Assembly: GCA_944363835.1 (NCBI GenBank)
Contig: CALVVJ010000004.1
Coordinates: forward strand, 1-40,973
DNA length: 40,973 nucleotides
From: an uncultured Bacilli bacterium
GTDB lineage: Bacteria > Bacillota_I > Bacilli_A > RF39 > UBA660
Direction of reading: 5' to 3'
Made by a program: the position numbers and the translations under genes
Shown: piece after piece, positions 23,216-37,905 of the stretch
Layout: every line of letters starts with the position of its first letter
How positions within the stretch are numbered: position 1 is the first letter of the stretch
Notes under the pieces: generated by a model
Told to the model about the DNA's origin: nothing
What the model saw: only the letters and a program-made list of their open reading frames with translations
The model's database searches: none

Positions 23216-24280
23216 TTATTTAATTTTATTTGTCTTAAAATTATTATCTAAAATGCTATGTAAAATATTATAATAAGTGTCTTCATTTAATAAAACGTAT
23301 TCCTCACCACTAATATTAACGCTAATACTAAGTAAACTTAAAAAAAGCATAAATTTATAATGTAATTCCTCTTCAGCAACATTTGAATCTATTGCTAAGG
23401 ATGCAAAATATTTAATAAAAATCTTAATTAAAAACTCAGAAATACTACTAAAAGCCTTACGTAATAAATATTTTTTAAATAATAAAAATTTATGATTAGG
23501 CAAATATTGCATAGTAAAATCTACATTAGATATAAAACTTAGTATTTCTTTTTCTGTAGCATATTTTGATAAAAAATCAACTAATCCCTTTAGATTTGCT
23601 TGCATATATAATTGTTCCATCTCATCTTTTCCAACAATTATTTCTAAAACCTGAACAATTCTTTTTTGAATAGGATAAGAACTATCAATAACACTTTCTT
23701 TTGCAAAATATCTTTCAGTTAATAATTGAGTATATCCTTCATTTAAACCTTTACCAAAAGCATCTTGAGAAAACCCACTAAAAGTTGTCTTATCTTGAAT
23801 AATTGAACTAGATAAATGAAATAATTCATGATAAATTGGATTATATAAAGAACAATCTCTAATTATAATTGCATTCTTTTTTAAATTATATGTCCCAGTA
23901 ACCTCTGGATTAAAAATATGTTTTTGATGATATGTATCTTTTAATTTTAAAGATTTTAAATTATTACATAATAATATCAAACAATCATCAGAAAAATTTG
24001 AACAAACTGTATTAATAAAATTTAATATATGTGCTTTATCTTCCTCTTTAATCTTATCATCAACTTGAAAATCTCCACTTTCTAATACTAGTTCCGGAGG
24101 CATCTTTATCTTTTTACATTTAGGAAAATGATATTCTATTTGAAGAGCTACTCCTTGAGTTACCTTCCTTGATGCATAATATATAACTGCAAATCTAAAA
24201 ATACTAGCTATTGTATCTAAATCTATATTCTGCAAAATAGTTATCGCATTATTTACTTCATTATTTTCACTCTCAAACAT
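23216..24280 (-). CDS. Retron-associated putative zinc metallopeptidase (candidate effector)
   Basis: 354 residues, cytoplasmic by composition. IYHELFHLSSS gives an HExxH motif at 151-155, and GKGLNEGYTQLLTERYF places Glu181 26 residues after the second His, the spacing expected of a gluzincin-type third zinc ligand. The preceding NAIIIRD strand is typical of the edge strand in such folds. Residues 25-110 and 200-354 are helical regions with no named domain. It starts 8 bp inside the DUF1292-like gene, with GAAGGG upstream, so it is translated with the reverse transcriptase operon. Other bacteria may carry this family without a retron. Peptidase activity is inferred from motifs only. Confidence 0.65.
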   Translation of the reverse strand: MFESENNEVNNAITILQNIDLDTIASIFRFAVIYYASRKVTQGVALQIEYHFPKCKKIKMPPELVLESGDFQVDDKIKEEDKAHILNFINTVCSNFSDDCLILLCNNLKSLKLKDTYHQKHIFNPEVTGTYNLKKNAIIIRDCSLYNPIYHELFHLSSSIIQDKTTFSGFSQDAFGKGLNEGYTQLLTERYFAKESVIDSSYPIQKRIVQVLEIIVGKDEMEQLYMQANLKGLVDFLSKYATEKEILSFISNVDFTMQYLPNHKFLLFKKYLLRKAFSSISEFLIKIFIKYFASLAIDSNVAEEELHYKFMLFLSLLSISVNISGEEYVLLNEDTYYNILHSILDNNFKTNKIK

Positions 24281-24533
24281 TAAAACACCCTTCTTCTAAA
24301 AAATTATTTATAACTTCTTTATCTAATTCATCAGTTATTTCTTCTAATACAGAATCATTTCCTATTTTATATATAGCAGCCATTACATTAAGCACCCCTT
24401 TATTAGTCATCTGTCCATCAGTAAATATAACGTAATGTTTATGAGTCTTTTTAGATTTAAAAGTAAATAATATTTCATATTTTTTAATACTACCATCTTC
24501 TAAAACAAATTCTATATATTTTTTATCTTCCAT
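24273..24533 (-). CDS. DUF1292-like 86-aa protein in the retron operon
   Basis: Acidic small protein. EFVLEDGSIKKYEILFTFKSKKTHKHYVIFTDGQ followed by GVLNVMAAIYKIGNDSVLEEITDELDKEVINNFLEE fits the DUF1292 (YrzB-like) pattern: strand-turn-strand, a tyrosine/phenylalanine-rich middle, and an acidic helix at the end. It starts 22 bp inside the reverse transcriptase gene and its end overlaps the metallopeptidase-like gene by 8 bp. Such tight overlaps suggest a fixed stoichiometry, for instance an inhibitor or adaptor of the peptidase, but this is inference. DUF1292 proteins have no established activity. Confidence 0.6.
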   Translation of the reverse strand: MEDKKYIEFVLEDGSIKKYEILFTFKSKKTHKHYVIFTDGQMTNKGVLNVMAAIYKIGNDSVLEEITDELDKEVINNFLEEGCFNV

Positions 24534-25459
24534 ACTAACATATCCCTATATATTATAAATTCTTTATTATTAGTTACTTGAATTACATAATTAATTCTTC
24601 CGAGTAAATTACTTAAATACTTAGTTTTATTATAAATATTTAACTTATTTAAATGATTATCTACTCCATATTTTTTAATATAATACATCTCTTGTCTTAT
24701 TTTCCTTTTATATTCCTTACATATATTTATTTTTTCATTAATAACTAATCCCGTAACAATTTGTCTTTTATTACGTTTTATAACATGTATTTTATCATAA
24801 TTAAGTTTAAAACCGTTTTCTTTTAATAAACTTTTAACCAAATAAATAACTTCTGTAACATTAAAATCTCCCGAAAATGTTAAGTCATCAGAATATCTCG
24901 TATAACTAATACTTTTGTAACTACAATATTTACCTATTGTTTCATCAAACTTTCGCATTACAATATTAGATATATAAGAAGACGTCGGAGCCCCTTGAGG
25001 TAGTTTATTATTATAAGTACATAATTTTGTTAAGAGTACACCTATAGATTTAGTATATATTTCTTCTCTAAAACACCTATTATATACCATACTAAATGTA
25101 ATATTATCAAAGAAATTCTTTATATCTAACTTAAGTATTATTTTAGCATTTACATGAGGTAAGGCGTTATCTTTTAAACTAACTCCCTTTTTATAGGCGG
25201 TTGCATATTTAGATATTTGTTTTTCCTCTAAAATATTATGTAATATATTTCTTTGGACCATTTTTAATAATTTACTAGGTTCATAAATAATCCTAAAACC
25301 ACCACTGTTCTTTGGTATTTCATATTCAATATAATTTCCATCTATATTATTACTAAGATAATATAAAGTTTTCTTATAACGTTTTATATCCCTAGTTTTA
25401 AGCAAATTAAAAGAAAGTAAAAACTTATTGTAAGTATCATCATCTAAATACTTCCACAT
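24512..25459 (-). CDS. Retron-type reverse transcriptase
   Basis: 315 residues, the usual size for stand-alone retron RTs. Motifs in order: GVSLKDNALPHV with the retron-specific NAxxH (98-102), catalytic LDIKNFFDNI (Asp112), LPQGAPTSSYISNIV (153-167), SYTRYSDDLTFSG with Asp191 and Asp192 (most relatives read YADD), LNYDKIHV, and QIVTGLVIN with the retron-specific VTGL (235-238). No maturase, HNH or DNA-binding domain of group II introns is present. The ATG follows AAGGAGGT by about 7 bases, and that site overlaps the a2 end of the msr-msd RNA directly upstream. It would copy the msd part into branched msDNA. Confidence 0.93.
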   Translation of the reverse strand: MWKYLDDDTYNKFLLSFNLLKTRDIKRYKKTLYYLSNNIDGNYIEYEIPKNSGGFRIIYEPSKLLKMVQRNILHNILEEKQISKYATAYKKGVSLKDNALPHVNAKIILKLDIKNFFDNITFSMVYNRCFREEIYTKSIGVLLTKLCTYNNKLPQGAPTSSYISNIVMRKFDETIGKYCSYKSISYTRYSDDLTFSGDFNVTEVIYLVKSLLKENGFKLNYDKIHVIKRNKRQIVTGLVINEKINICKEYKRKIRQEMYYIKKYGVDNHLNKLNIYNKTKYLSNLLGRINYVIQVTNNKEFIIYRDMLVWKIKNI

Positions 25460-32116: not shown

Positions 32117-32141
32117 TTAAGTTCACATGCTTAACTATTTT
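32110..32141. terminator. Bidirectional terminator (gpsA / tcdA)
   Basis: AAAATAGTTAAG (32110-32121), 8-nt loop, CTTAACTATTTT (32130-32141), perfect 12-bp stem with flanking A and T runs. Confidence 0.85.
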
Positions 32142-32805
32142 CTTTTATAATATCATTTATCACATAATACGCAAGATAGATACCAGCAACTGCTGGAGGA
32201 AAAATACTTGAAGATATAATTTTATCATTATTTAAAGGTGTACTTTCATGATAAACTACTGGAATATCTAGCTTTATATTTTCTTTTCTAAGTCTTTGTC
32301 TTAAACTTCTTGCTAATGCATCATTCTTAGTTTTACTTAACTTAGTTATACTTATCCCTTCGGGATTAAGTCTTTTACCTGTACCAAGTGCCTAAACTAT
32401 TTTTCTATTATTTTTCACACAATATTTAATTACCGCCACTTTAGCAGTCAAATCATCGCAAGCATCGATTACATAATCAAATCCTTGTAAATTATTAATA
32501 TTTTCCTCATTAATATAAATATTAAAACCAGTAATATTAATACTCGGATTGATATTTTTCATCCTTTTTATAGCCACTTCTATCTTTGGTTTTCCAATAT
32601 TTTCATTTAAAGCAATTATTTGTCTATTTAAATTGCTTTCATCAATTACATCACCATCGAATATAGTTATATTTTTAATACCACTTCTAACTAAAGATTC
32701 TAAAGTAAAGCCACCAACACCACCTACTCCAACCAAAGCAATATTAACTTTACATATTTTATCCAAATTATCTTTACCAATTAAACTAATTAATCTATCA
32801 AACAT
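32131..32805 (-). pseudogene. tcdA: tRNA threonylcarbamoyladenosine dehydratase with in-frame amber stop
   Basis: ThiF/E1-like protein that cyclises t6A37 in tRNA. From the ATG at 32805, ATP-binding GVGGVGGF, NLNRQIIAL and the acidic DACDD are present up to codon 137. There a TAG (32392-32394) follows KIV. Past it, in the same frame, the rest of the family continues: ALGTGKRLNPEGISITKLSKTKNDALARSLR...TPLNNDKIISSSIFPPAVAGIYLAYYV, to a TAA at 32131. Without the TAG it would be 224 residues, the normal length. So this is a single nonsense change, an error, or a readthrough; TAG is an ordinary stop in other genes here. Only one base separates it from a sense codon. Confidence 0.8.
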
Positions 32806-32813
32806 AATCGTAA

Positions 32814-33065
32814 TTACTCTTGTTTCTTTCTTTTTAACGATAAATCTTCACTTTTTTCTTCAATTTCAAACTCTTCGCATAATTTTAGTGCTTTTTGCCT
32901 TTGTATTTCAAGAGCATCATCTTGCATTTTCCTTGTTGCTACAAAATTGCCACTACCATCAACACCCACATACTTCATAAAATAGTATGAAAATGGTTTT
33001 AACTCATTCGATTTAGTAACTTGTATATCACTTTCCTCTTGAGTAGGTTCATGAATATATTTCAT
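32814..33065 (-). CDS. 83-aa charged protein of unknown function
   Basis: Starts at an ATG at 33065 with AAGGAGAT 7 bases upstream; the frame is open further upstream into the RNA gene, but has no ribosome site there. MKYIHEPTQEESDIQVTKSN is followed by ELKPFSYYFMKYVGVDGSGNF, VATRKMQDDALEIQRQKALKLCEEF and a highly charged tail. The second half looks like a single helix. No family recognised. It directly follows the 6S-like RNA terminator and precedes tcdA by 8 bp, so it may be read through from the RNA gene or use an unseen promoter. Confidence 0.55.
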   Translation of the reverse strand: MKYIHEPTQEESDIQVTKSNELKPFSYYFMKYVGVDGSGNFVATRKMQDDALEIQRQKALKLCEEFEIEEKSEDLSLKRKKQE

Positions 33066-33079
33066 AAAAATCTCCTTTT

Positions 33080-33262
33080 TTATTAAAAACCCAGAAGGAA
33101 GTCCTGCATTGATAAAAACCCGCTCTCGGCAGGTGGGCATCACATGATTTGCTTTAGGATCCTTATGCACTTAATGGATAAGTCTTCTACACCACAAACC
33201 AATTAGATTCCCGTATATCATATTTAGTCGGTTTTATATAGACATAGACTAACCTTCTAGGT
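33080..33262 (-). ncRNA. 6S-like small RNA (probable ssrS)
   Basis: An independent ~180-nt RNA. Its promoter predicts a start at 33262. The 5' end ACCTAGAAGG (33262-33253) pairs with the 3' end CCTTCTGGGT (33098-33089) as a 10-bp closing stem followed by a T-run. AGTC/GACT pairing continues inward, AAACCGA pairs with TTGGTTT, and a CCTGC/GCGGG hairpin lies at the 3' side (~33118-33132). Length, long closed rod and location beside tcdA and rarA match Bacillus 6S-1 RNA. No alignment was done; another structured RNA remains possible. Confidence 0.5.
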
Positions 33263-33268
33263 AACTTA

Positions 33269-33313: not shown

Positions 33314-33481
33314 TTACATACTTTCCTGTCCAAATTGTTCTACTTCTTTTAAAATAATCTCTTTTTTCTTAATATCTATTTTTATTTTTTCATTATCTTC
33401 TTTTAATTCTATTAAAGCGTCTTCCAATTTATCCAACTCTTCATCAATCATTTTAAATATCTTTTCTTCCAGTTCCATCAT
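33314..33481 (-). CDS. 55-aa coiled-coil peptide
   Basis: Two adjacent ATGs at 33481 and 33478, with GGTGGT upstream inside the end of the alpha-CTD-like gene, which it overlaps by 29 bp. The product (MMELEEKIFKMIDEELDKLE...) is a single charged helix with heptad spacing of I, L and V, suggesting a coiled coil. The C-terminal 10 residues are not charged in the same way. It is the third gene of the alpha-CTD-repeat operon. No family recognised. Confidence 0.5.
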   Translation of the reverse strand: MMELEEKIFKMIDEELDKLEDALIELKEDNEKIKIDIKKKEIILKEVEQFGQESM

Positions 33482-33980
33482 TTACCACCATTTTCCTACA
33501 TCTAATTACTTCTTCACTAGGAAAAGTAAATCCTAATTCATAAATTAAATTTTCTAAAACCTTAATATATTCTTCATTAAATTTCAAAATTTTCATCAGT
33601 TGCGAATAGTTGGTAATAAGCAAATCTCCTAGATAATTTATGCCATGAGCTATTAATATATCTTTTATGTCATCTGGTATATTTAAATTACTTATTTTCA
33701 TAAAAATATACTCATCTGAAATATTATACATTGTATATATTTCTCTATAAAAATTATATACATATCCTTTATCCATTAAACCACACTTTAACTCATCAAA
33801 CTTTAAATTACCGTAGTAATTGCCCCCACCTAAAATTTCCATAACCAAGGAAGGATGCATTTCTAATAATTTAGAAATAGTAAAAATACCAGCATCTTCA
33901 AGTTGCCATATAATTTTTGAGCTTATATCAAGTTCACAAACAAAATAAGCCTTCGTACTCACAAAAATTTCCTTATTCAT
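33453..33980 (-). CDS. RNA polymerase alpha-CTD-like repeat protein (short)
   Basis: 175 residues. At least two repeats resemble the helix-hairpin-helix fold of the RNA polymerase alpha C-terminal domain: LDISSKIIWQLEDAGIFTISKLLEMHPSLVMEILG, and LNIPDDIKDILIAHGINYLGDLLITNYSQLMKILKFNEEYIKVLENLIYELGF. The latter follows alpha-CTD pattern L-x-x-x-x-x-x-L-x-x-x-G-I-x-x-x-x-D-L closely. There is no alpha N-terminal domain, so it is not rpoA. It starts 6 bp after the larger repeat protein, in the same operon. Binding to DNA or RNA polymerase is plausible but unproven. Confidence 0.65.
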   Translation of the reverse strand: MNKEIFVSTKAYFVCELDISSKIIWQLEDAGIFTISKLLEMHPSLVMEILGGGNYYGNLKFDELKCGLMDKGYVYNFYREIYTMYNISDEYIFMKISNLNIPDDIKDILIAHGINYLGDLLITNYSQLMKILKFNEEYIKVLENLIYELGFTFPSEEVIRCRKMVVNDGTGRKDI

Positions 33981-33986
33981 AAATAT

Positions 33987-34967
33987 CTATTTTCTCCTCA
34001 AAGTTGTTTTAAACATAAGTATTTTTCTTTCTATTTGCTCATCTAGTTCTTTTTCTCTAGCATGAAGTTCTGCTCTTTCTATCATTAGTTTTCTATATTC
34101 TTCCAATAACTTTTCTTTTCTTCTAATTCTTTTTTCTATTTCTTCATTTTCTTTTTTAGCGTTTATTACATCAGCATCACTAACTTCATTTTTTAGATTA
34201 TTTAAACCATCCATATTACTAGCAGAATTAGAAAACACTATTCCTTTTTCTTCCATAGTTTTTTGAAGAATAGTTATAGCCTTTTCTCCAATTCCCTTCA
34301 GCTTGAAAACATCTGACCCATAATTGATTAAATCATCTATAGTATAAATATTATTGCGATATAAACAATTACTTATACGCACATCAAGTTCTAATACATC
34401 TCCAACAAGAGGAATACCTAAATCACTATATTGTCTAAGTACTTCTTCTGCTAATTTGTCTTCGTTTTTTAATGTATATCCTAAATCATGAACAAATTTC
34501 TTTAATTGCATTAGACTAGTTACACCAATATTATTAATTTCTTCAATATCAGCATAATCAGTAGTTAATAAATCTCCTAAAAACTCTATTCCTTTCTTTC
34601 TAAGTCCCCATATTATCCTATTAGTTAAATTAAGCTTTTTAACAGGAACTAAAGCCATATTAGGATTTATTCCATAAGCTTTAAATACTACTAAATCATT
34701 TTTAAAAATTACTCCCATATTCATAAGAGCACTTCTAATTGAATGATAACCATTGAAATAGCCTTTTTTTGTTTTCTCAACTATTTCCTCTTCACCCATA
34801 CTTATTAAATCCCCAATTGATTTAATATCTCCATTTTGAGTTAACAAATTATAATATTCTTCTTCTACCCCATATTTTTTTAATTCACTAATAGGTATAA
34901 AATCAGCATTATTATTACGCTCTTCATTATATAAAGAAAATTTAAAAAGCATTCCCAAATTAGTCAT
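33987..34967 (-). CDS. RNA polymerase alpha-CTD-like repeat protein with C-terminal coiled coil
   Basis: 326 residues with about four alpha-CTD-like repeats: around residue 25-90 (ISELKKYGVEEEYYNLLTQNGDIKSIGDLISMG), 110-180 (VKKLNLTNRIIWGLRKKGIEFLGDLLTTDYADIEEINNIG), 195-245 (LELDVRISNCLYRNNIYTIDDLINYGSDVFKLKGIGEKAITIL) and one weaker. From ~262 a long Lys/Glu coiled coil runs to the end. Such multi-CTD proteins without the alpha N-terminal domain would provide several minor-groove or sigma-like contacts. GGGGGAG precedes the ATG. It leads an operon with the 175-residue and 55-residue proteins, upstream of the 6S-like RNA. Confidence 0.7.
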   Translation of the reverse strand: MTNLGMLFKFSLYNEERNNNADFIPISELKKYGVEEEYYNLLTQNGDIKSIGDLISMGEEEIVEKTKKGYFNGYHSIRSALMNMGVIFKNDLVVFKAYGINPNMALVPVKKLNLTNRIIWGLRKKGIEFLGDLLTTDYADIEEINNIGVTSLMQLKKFVHDLGYTLKNEDKLAEEVLRQYSDLGIPLVGDVLELDVRISNCLYRNNIYTIDDLINYGSDVFKLKGIGEKAITILQKTMEEKGIVFSNSASNMDGLNNLKNEVSDADVINAKKENEEIEKRIRRKEKLLEEYRKLMIERAELHAREKELDEQIERKILMFKTTLRRK

Positions 34968-35023
34968 TGTATCTCCCCCTTACTTGGTTAATATTATATA
35001 TTAAATAAAACTAAAAGTCAAAA

Positions 35024-35964: not shown

Positions 35965-37860
35965 TTAAGCTGCAATAATTTCAGGTGTTGTAGGCACACT
36001 ACTATCATCTGATATTTCTATATTTGGAACGTTTCTTATTTGCTCATCACCCGTACTCATTGGATCTTGAGTATTACCATTAGAACTAGAAGATGGCATA
36101 TTACCATTAACTTGCAATTTCCAGCAACTAGAAACATCACAGTTACTACTAAATGGCATTGGATTAGGCATTTCCATCTTTACAATCATTGGAATCTTAA
36201 ATGCTCCCCCAAAACATACACAATTTCCTGGTTGTAATACTTTTTGTTTATCCAAAATATCCGCTGAAATATTTGGAAGCATTTCTCCAATATACTTAAT
36301 ATCTAAAGGGTGTGTCATCTTAAATATTAAGAAATTATTACATTGAGCTATAACAGTATCAGATATTTCTACTGGTCTTTGACTAATTATATCGAGTATT
36401 ACCCCGTACTTACGACCTTCTTTAGCAATACGATCAAATATATTATATCCAAGTAAGAAAGTATCATTATCTTTTTGAATGTATCTGTGGGCTTCTTCTA
36501 AGAATAGGTGAAATGGTATCTTTGCCCTTTCTTTACTTTCTTTAGAAAAATCAAATATCAATCTTGAAATAATCTTAACAAACACCTTAGCAAAAGTATC
36601 ATCGACATCTTCTAAATTGATATTGATAATTTGTGCTTTACGATCACCTACCGCTACTAAAGAAGATATATAGTCTTTAACAGGTATATATTCGCTAGAA
36701 AAATATTCATACATTTTACTATTTATAATAGAATTAAGTCTAACCCGAAGTATTACAGCATCATCATGCAAATTTTGGTTATGTTGAAATCCTTCGCTAA
36801 TAAGAGTAAATTCCATAGCTTTAGCAAAATCTTTTAATGAATAACTAGCAGTTTCTGGAGCTTTAATCGAATCTAAATCGTCATTAATTTTACCTAAAAT
36901 ATAGTTAGTAATAAGTACTGATTCTCCAAAATTACCATTAGAATCTATTTCAAAGCATTCACTAAATGTTCTAGTATAACCAAGCCCTGGAATAACAGAA
37001 TCAAAATTAAATTCTGGTGTATTACATACTTCAATTATCGTAAATATTTCATTTTTCTTACTAGCCACCGTTTCATTACTAAATAATACTGCAAGTAGTG
37101 CTTTAGCAATCAAATGATTTTTATAAGCTCTTGATTCTTCAGAATCAGTTGAAAATATCTTGGCTAGCTTAATTGTATGTTCAATTATAGGAAGTTGCGC
37201 ATGATTTGATGCTTGTAAAAGCAAAGCCATATCATCAAGTTCTAATAAACTTACCGGAATCTTCAAAAGTATATCTGTTTCATCAGTAGGATTAGTTGTA
37301 ATAAACTTATAACTATAATTAGGATTTATTTCGTTTAATCTGCCAAAAGCATTTTTATATTCACCAAATGAATCAAAAATAAACAAATTAGCATTATATT
37401 GTACTGAAAACTTATTATTAAATATATTTTGAATAATCCTTGCTACCCCACAAGATTTACCAGAACCAGAGTTACCAAATATCGCTAAATGGTTAGAAAA
37501 TAAACTATTAATATCAGGACATATATTAAATCCTTTATAAATAGCACTTTCCCCTAAAATAAAACTTGAAGCATTATAGGTACCCACTAATTCCATTAAT
37601 TCTTCCGAATTAATCATTCTAATCTTACTAGTAAGCATTGGTTTTCTTAAAACCCCATTTACATACTTACCATTTATATATTCTCCTAAAAACCTAATTT
37701 TTATTACTTCATTACCCAGTTCAAATACTTCCCCTAATATTCTTTGGTTACTTTCTTCGAATATGACATTCATATTCATTAAATCCGCTTCACTAGCTTC
37801 CTTTTGTAAATTTTCAACATGGGCTTCACTATCCCCAATATAAACTATTTTTCCAAACAT
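35965..37860 (-). CDS. HerA-like ATPase (DUF87/FtsK-HerA superfamily)
   Basis: 631 residues from the ATG at 37860 (AGGAGAG upstream). N-terminal HAS-barrel-like domain at ~1-80, then Walker A GNSGSGKS at 129-136, with IFDSFGEYKNAF after it, as in HerA. FHLFLEEAHRYIQ is Walker B with the catalytic Glu, followed by GRKYGVILDIISQRPVEIS and the arginine-containing region. The last ~70 residues are Asn/Ser/Pro-rich and disordered. HerA works as a hexameric DNA translocase with the NurA nuclease, or in defence (HerA-DUF4297, HerA-SIR2). Neither NurA nor such a partner is next to it. Confidence 0.85.
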   Translation of the reverse strand: MFGKIVYIGDSEAHVENLQKEASEADLMNMNVIFEESNQRILGEVFELGNEVIKIRFLGEYINGKYVNGVLRKPMLTSKIRMINSEELMELVGTYNASSFILGESAIYKGFNICPDINSLFSNHLAIFGNSGSGKSCGVARIIQNIFNNKFSVQYNANLFIFDSFGEYKNAFGRLNEINPNYSYKFITTNPTDETDILLKIPVSLLELDDMALLLQASNHAQLPIIEHTIKLAKIFSTDSEESRAYKNHLIAKALLAVLFSNETVASKKNEIFTIIEVCNTPEFNFDSVIPGLGYTRTFSECFEIDSNGNFGESVLITNYILGKINDDLDSIKAPETASYSLKDFAKAMEFTLISEGFQHNQNLHDDAVILRVRLNSIINSKMYEYFSSEYIPVKDYISSLVAVGDRKAQIININLEDVDDTFAKVFVKIISRLIFDFSKESKERAKIPFHLFLEEAHRYIQKDNDTFLLGYNIFDRIAKEGRKYGVILDIISQRPVEISDTVIAQCNNFLIFKMTHPLDIKYIGEMLPNISADILDKQKVLQPGNCVCFGGAFKIPMIVKMEMPNPMPFSSNCDVSSCWKLQVNGNMPSSSSNGNTQDPMSTGDEQIRNVPNIEISDDSSVPTTPEIIAA

Positions 37861-37905
37861 TTTTATCTCTCCTATGCTATATAAATTATAACATAGCATA
37901 AAAAA

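Follow-up and report, generated by a model that had tools for sequence, protein, structure and literature searches.

Genes and features of the locus

The window, by which we mean the whole stretch of 40,973 nucleotides analysed here (contig CALVVJ010000004.1 of an uncultured Bacilli bacterium from the gut), encodes three adjacent minus-strand ORFs of 326, 175 and 55 amino acids, here called P1, P2 and P3. Their coordinates and description are as the initial annotation of this DNA gave them. The features of the operon and its immediate surroundings are as follows.

35051-35024, terminator-like hairpin of the preceding gene; the promoter-like site of the operon comes after it
34993..35021, minus strand, promoter-like site of the operon, TTGACT-17-TATAAT (11/12; consensus match only)
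33987..34967, minus strand, P1 (326 aa), with three alphaCTD-like domains ahead of a coiled coil at the C terminus
34692..34898, minus strand, P1 repeat R1 (aa ~24-92), a diverged alphaCTD-like domain, from hhalign and the five-helix pattern in the model
34464..34667, minus strand, P1 repeat R2 (aa ~101-168), from PF03118 and structural superposition
34224..34412, minus strand, P1 repeat R3 (aa ~186-248), from PF03118 and DNA-contact residues
33993..34178, minus strand, P1 C-terminal coil (aa 264-325), from the predicted helix and a motif common to homologues
33453..33980, minus strand, P2 (175 aa), with a pair of alphaCTD-like domains akin to P1 R1-R2 and no coil
33314..33481, minus strand, P3, a coiled-coil peptide of 55 aa; 29-nt overlap with the P2 end, +1 frame
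33297-33269, promoter-like site of the 6S RNA itself, extended -10
33084..33266, minus strand, 6S RNA (RF00013), a neighbour that we judge to lie outside the module

In the window, P2 sits between P1 and P3. It shares homology with R1-R2 of P1 (P2 32-158 aligned to P1 48-171, phmmer 1.5e-11) and would be a local duplicate of the first two P1 domains.

Identity and fold of the repeats

P1 matches the Pfam model of the RNA polymerase alpha C-terminal domain (alphaCTD, PF03118; cut-off 23.8 bits) in two stretches, at E 2.5e-20 and 72.4 bits, and P2 matches it at E 2.3e-5 and 24.4 bits, just above the cut-off. Counted by position, the repeats number five, at a pitch of about 80 aa, three in P1 (R1 to R3) and two in P2 (R4, aa ~8-77, and R5, aa ~87-155). 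The initial annotation was right to describe multiple repeats of this kind, but its count of about six was too high. Taken alone, R2 and R3 pass PF03118 (7.7e-10 and 7.8e-8), R5 matches weakly under the cut-off (8e-3), and R1 and R4 are each undetected by Pfam. Profile-profile comparison with rpoA CTDs gave hhalign probabilities of 94% for the R1/R4 type (E 1.2e-7) and 97% for the R2/R5 type (E 3e-11). In the PDB, the top match is 1doq, a Thermus alphaCTD (6e-6). All NCBIfam matches of P1 are to rpoA models and are confined to the CTD positions of those models; thus, there is no alpha N-terminal assembly domain, as had been proposed.

An AlphaFold2 model of P1, built from a two-sequence alignment and with a mean pLDDT of 72, contains three compact helical domains followed by a single helix (264-325). 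R1 shows the five-helix pattern in this model. The predicted R2 superposes on the Bacillus subtilis alphaCTD (1z3e_B) with a Z score of 11.3 and 1.3 A over 67 residues. Structural neighbours of the P1 model (Foldseek, VIA-align) were found mainly through R2; the first 47 listed are all alphaCTDs, and the first chain of another kind, at rank 48 with Z 8.2, is the HhH domain of yeast Dmc1.

Derivation of the repeats from a different HhH family was considered and ruled out by the profiles and the fold. Matches to HHH_5 (14.1 bits vs. a cut-off of 27) and RAD51D_N (19.6 vs. 27.3) are both below threshold, and no HhH model of UvrC, RuvA or DisA is among the Pfam and NCBIfam matches of P1, P2 or the single repeats. 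As no HhH family reached its cut-off, the alphaCTD assignment stands: these repeats are of the alphaCTD type.

We compared the repeats with the rpoA CTDs of relatives at seven DNA-contact residues (R265, N268, C269, G296, K298, S299 and E302 in E. coli numbering). R3 retains the equivalents of five of the seven (R265, N268, C269, G296 and K298), and DNA binding by this one P1 repeat is plausible from its residue set. R2 retains R265, G296 and S299, with Trp and Gly at 268 and 269. R1, R4 and R5 keep few or none of the residues, and the R265 arginine is missing or its position unaligned; DNA binding is hence not expected of every repeat. Across the repeat matches of array proteins that cover the position, R265 is kept in 52%, N268 in 57% and G296 in 65%.

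The coil and its small partner

The coil of P1 is 62 residues long and is predicted to be a single helix, with a pLDDT of 78-89 for most of its length. It carries the motif KRIxxKExLLxEYxxLxxERxxLxxREqeLDeeI, which is common to homologues. An array+coil gene and a small coil gene form a conserved two-gene cassette. Seven array+coil genes were fetched from genomes other than that of the window, and each has a same-strand coiled-coil ORF of 50-65 aa downstream, which overlaps the array+coil gene by about 10-55 nt or, at locus L089, follows it by about 20 nt. As a control, we inspected 236 genes of at least 150 aa at 26 loci and found a partner ORF after seven, all of them array+coil genes, and after 0 of the 229 others. 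P3 is a real coiled-coil gene, and both the C-terminal coiled coil of P1 and the third, coiled-coil gene had been correctly recognized.

The two genes are not always found together. A lone P3 homologue (48% identical) lies upstream of the 6S RNA in the same-genus genome G007, without P1. The coil-bearing proteins of L043 and L088 have no small partner peptide; thus, the coil can do without the peptide in some proteins.

Distribution, exchange and divergence

The operon is absent from 29 other genomes of the same genus at a threshold of E 1e-7, and the weaker same-genus matches that were read are rpoA genes. A PF03118 survey of 145 genomes of the family identified matches other than rpoA in 17. 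By alignment search, the array+coil form is present in 7 of 386 family genomes (the window genome, G119, G154, G225, G257, G319 and G347), nearly all of the genomes compared being draft assemblies of uncultured bacteria. Allowing for relatedness, these represent about five independent lineages, including that of the window.

G257, which belongs to another genus, encodes a full-length, co-linear P1 of 334 aa (35% over 311 aa, phmmer 1e-54), and a second, near-identical P1 of the G257 type occurs in another rabbit-gut MAG. Full-length matches were found in this family only, with none outside it among 395 genomes of the class; two weak matches in other families among those 395 genomes are rpoA-sized frames in which only positions 13-90 are covered. 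Searching genome contigs with a two-sequence alignment returned two homologues and one weak Moraxella match.

Two further readings of the arrays were rejected. A phage or plasmid origin was dismissed on finding no arrays in the phages, plasmids or viral contigs searched, where two weak matches are phage rpoA. Replacement of a lost alphaCTD was dismissed on the ordinary rpoA CTD of array-bearing relatives (e.g., G119 and G154); this check rests on relatives, the rpoA of the window genome being cut by a contig end and incomplete.

The cassette evolves fast and is exchanged horizontally as a pair. The two rabbit-gut MAGs share a block of 2,264 bp that is 96.3% identical, with flanks of 75-82%, and that contains P1, P3, a DUF402 protein and a GNAT acetyltransferase. 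At the ligA-gatC locus of two genomes of one genus, ligA is 95% identical and the array 31%. Between one of these two arrays and an array from another genus, identity is 54% and dS is 0.68, vs. 1.50 for ligA, a contrast that rests on few genes and in which ligA is near saturation. In each of these two comparisons, the partner peptide (58 and 74%) has diverged less than the array. The pattern fits a joint replacement of array and peptide there.

Relatives with sigma-region-4-like domains and defence-like genes

Some relatives carry a domain resembling region 4 of sigma-70 ahead of the same repeats (at L043, L088, L036, L037 and L089). The N-terminal domain of the L043 protein matches Pfam Sigma70_r4 at 27.1 bits (cut-off 24.1), and that of L088 falls just under the cut-off. 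Run against a small test database, a profile of eight such N-terminal domains matched region 4 of the RpoD encoded in the window at 1.2e-8. At L089, a sigma4-like domain that Pfam alone misses is joined to two alphaCTD repeats and the coil, and the small partner ORF is present as well. These proteins differ from sigma factors in that the other sigma regions are missing, and P1 and P2 differ from them in lacking the sigma4-like domain itself. The same-genus genes L088:5199-6833 and L037:369-1616 both encode the sigma4-like domain, with five or more alphaCTD repeats in the former vs. four in the latter; a further repeat lies out of frame at the end of the L037 gene.

Two long proteins of 737 and 829 aa (L038:5103-7316 and L040:3988-6477) begin with alphaCTD repeats and contain a sigma4-like motif. 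They have weak PADLOC matches to MzaA and PglW, and the L038 gene adjoins a DNA-methylase-like gene. Use of alphaCTD domains in defence islands is possible at these two loci. The alphaCTD repeats of L089 also match part of the defence protein PglW in PADLOC (3e-6). The likeness between these array relatives (L038, L040 and L089) and PglW or MzaA is limited to short alphaCTD- or sigma4-like stretches, the remainder of PglW and MzaA being missing. PADLOC models gave no match to P1, P2 or P3, and no known anti-phage defence system was recognized in the operon.

Other genes in the window were noted. A retron reverse transcriptase is encoded at 24512-25459 (minus strand; best PADLOC match RT_Ec107-like, 3.8e-121), and the gene next to it (23216-24280) has no PADLOC match. 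A HerA-type ATPase (DUF87) lies near the array genes of the window (35965-37899, minus strand), as it does at L084/L123 and L124, and one is also found near an alphaCTD-domain gene in L045.

Function of the operon

Among the known proteins closest in kind is the alpha subunit of RNA polymerase, whose CTD (PF03118) is like the repeats in sequence profile, five-helix HhH fold and, for R3, five of the seven DNA-contact residues. P1 and P2 differ from it in the lack of an alphaNTD, the tandem copies, the coiled coil (in P1) and genes that are separate from rpoA. The C-terminal acidic repeats of NusA are tandem HhH domains that contact the alphaCTD. They resemble the arrays in being tandem HhH domains tied to transcription, but NCBIfam matches up to E 1 include no NusA repeat model, and the NusA core domains are missing.

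We tentatively read the operon as an accessory, horizontally exchanged DNA-binding regulator cassette that places a detached set of alphaCTDs on promoter-upstream DNA, and give this a probability of roughly 0.4. P1 would be a string of alphaCTD-type HhH domains carried by a long C-terminal helix, and P3 its dedicated small coiled-coil partner. The coil of P1 and P3 may form a mixed coiled coil that gathers several of the domains. The gathered domains would sit on A+T-rich DNA upstream of promoters, much as the alphaCTDs of the polymerase do at UP elements, and the complex bound there could assist RNA polymerase, block it or compete with it at some group of promoters. This reading draws on the alphaCTD identity of the repeats, the R3 residue set, the pairing of array and small coil gene, their joint exchange, the sigma4-like relatives and the promoter-like site of the operon; the arginine missing from R1, R4 and R5 and the coils without a peptide at L043 and L088 count against it. 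The initial annotation had proposed a transcription-modulating module and pointed to the 6S RNA next to it. The domain family behind that proposal is upheld and the link to the 6S RNA is not; modulation itself we still infer, helped by the DNA-contact set kept in R3 and by sigma4-like relatives that share the repeats, the coil and the peptide. A broader form of this reading, in which sigma region 4 and tandem alphaCTDs, the two holoenzyme parts that read promoters, make up a mobile regulator family that has no catalytic or core-assembly part, carries a coil acting together with a 50-65 aa partner, and redirects or blocks the host RNA polymerase at selected promoters, seems to us somewhat unlikely.

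Several other functions can be envisaged. The array might be a toxin-antitoxin-like or defence-type decoy, harmful through competition with the alphaCTD (for UP elements, for sigma region 4 or for proteins that partner the alphaCTD) and neutralized by the small peptide by way of the coil. The cassette does have an adjacent, co-inherited small partner gene, as toxin-antitoxin pairs do. Two overlapping genes transferred together, rapid divergence (95% for ligA vs. 31% for the array in a same-genus pair), patchy presence (0 of 29 other same-genus genomes) and the L089 match to part of PglW at 3e-6 all suit such a decoy. Yet PADLOC recognizes none of P1, P2 and P3, the cassette is in no phage or plasmid searched, and the solitary P3 homologue of G007 fits a leftover antitoxin but other readings too. 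We regard a decoy as unlikely.

The minor-groove-binding repeats and an oligomerizing coil could instead bridge or silence bulk A+T-rich DNA in the manner of nucleoid proteins, with no involvement of RNA polymerase. DNA-binding-type domains joined to a coil and a small coil partner, in a window of 28% G+C, are in keeping with this. We hold it to be just as unlikely as the decoy, since proteins of that type are usually conserved within a genus, which this operon is not (it is missing from the 29 other genomes), and since the sigma4-like relatives point to promoters. It is more improbable still that the HhH domains serve solely as a protein-binding scaffold and do not bind DNA: three of the five window repeats do lack the DNA-contact arginine, but R3 keeps most of the residues compared, and equivalents of R265 and N268 persist in roughly half of the wider repeat set.

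The neighbouring 6S RNA

The 6S-like RNA that had been reported directly downstream of the operon is a real member of RF00013 (62.2 bits vs. a cut-off of 46.4) and begins 47 nt past the P3 stop. Separate promoter-like sites lie ahead of the operon and of the 6S RNA. We found no terminator-like site between P3 and the 6S RNA, so read-through into the latter is possible. Same-genus genomes without the operon have the 6S RNA at the same locus, after a gene for a 271-aa glucosaminidase-like protein and mostly before tcdA. Thus, either the window species would carry an insert of ~1.7 kb at the 6S locus, or other members of the genus would have lost the operon. No unusual base composition of the insert was seen. 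The array loci searched elsewhere (all except L037, L041, L042, L046 and L048) have no 6S RNA nearby.

The link between operon and 6S RNA drawn in the initial annotation is accordingly not supported: the two are not conserved together, and a conserved association is largely refuted. Joint control of RNA polymerase by the operon and the 6S RNA, which the 47-nt spacing and the possible read-through might suggest, is very improbable given that the genus keeps its 6S RNA where the operon is lacking, that the other array loci searched have none nearby and that this RNA has an extended -10 site of its own. The position of the operon beside it is best treated as an accident of this one species, with the 6S RNA outside the mechanism.

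Mobile-element-like sequence is present immediately upstream of the 6S RNA in two same-genus genomes, G007 and G012 (window positions 33314-33324; L095 and L100). G012 matches the window at 99% identity as far as 33324, where the end of an element follows that is repeated at the end of another G012 contig, and G007 has a zinc-ribbon transposase-like gene (assigned by eye) upstream of the 6S RNA. Insertions may thus be frequent at this site.

On the other side of the 6S RNA is a ThiF/TcdA-like gene (32128-32805, minus strand) with an in-frame TAG near 32390. At the near-identical G012 locus (L131), the frame is open and encodes 224 aa; the TAG is either a mutation, a polymorphism or an assembly error. 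A small ORF between the 6S RNA and tcdA (32814-33170, minus strand; 83 aa from an inner ATG) is common only to G007 and G012 among the loci seen and has no family match.

Significance

Many bacterial activators, and UP elements too, make use of the alphaCTD of RNA polymerase. We found no description of such alphaCTD arrays in the literature searched, a search with most subscription journals outside its scope. From its sequence, the cassette looks like an undescribed mobile DNA-binding, and probably transcription-modulating, module. If the reading as a DNA-binding regulator cassette is true, free-standing, exchanged alphaCTD arrays with a coil partner would give these bacteria a ready-made means to interfere with promoter choice or to redirect it.
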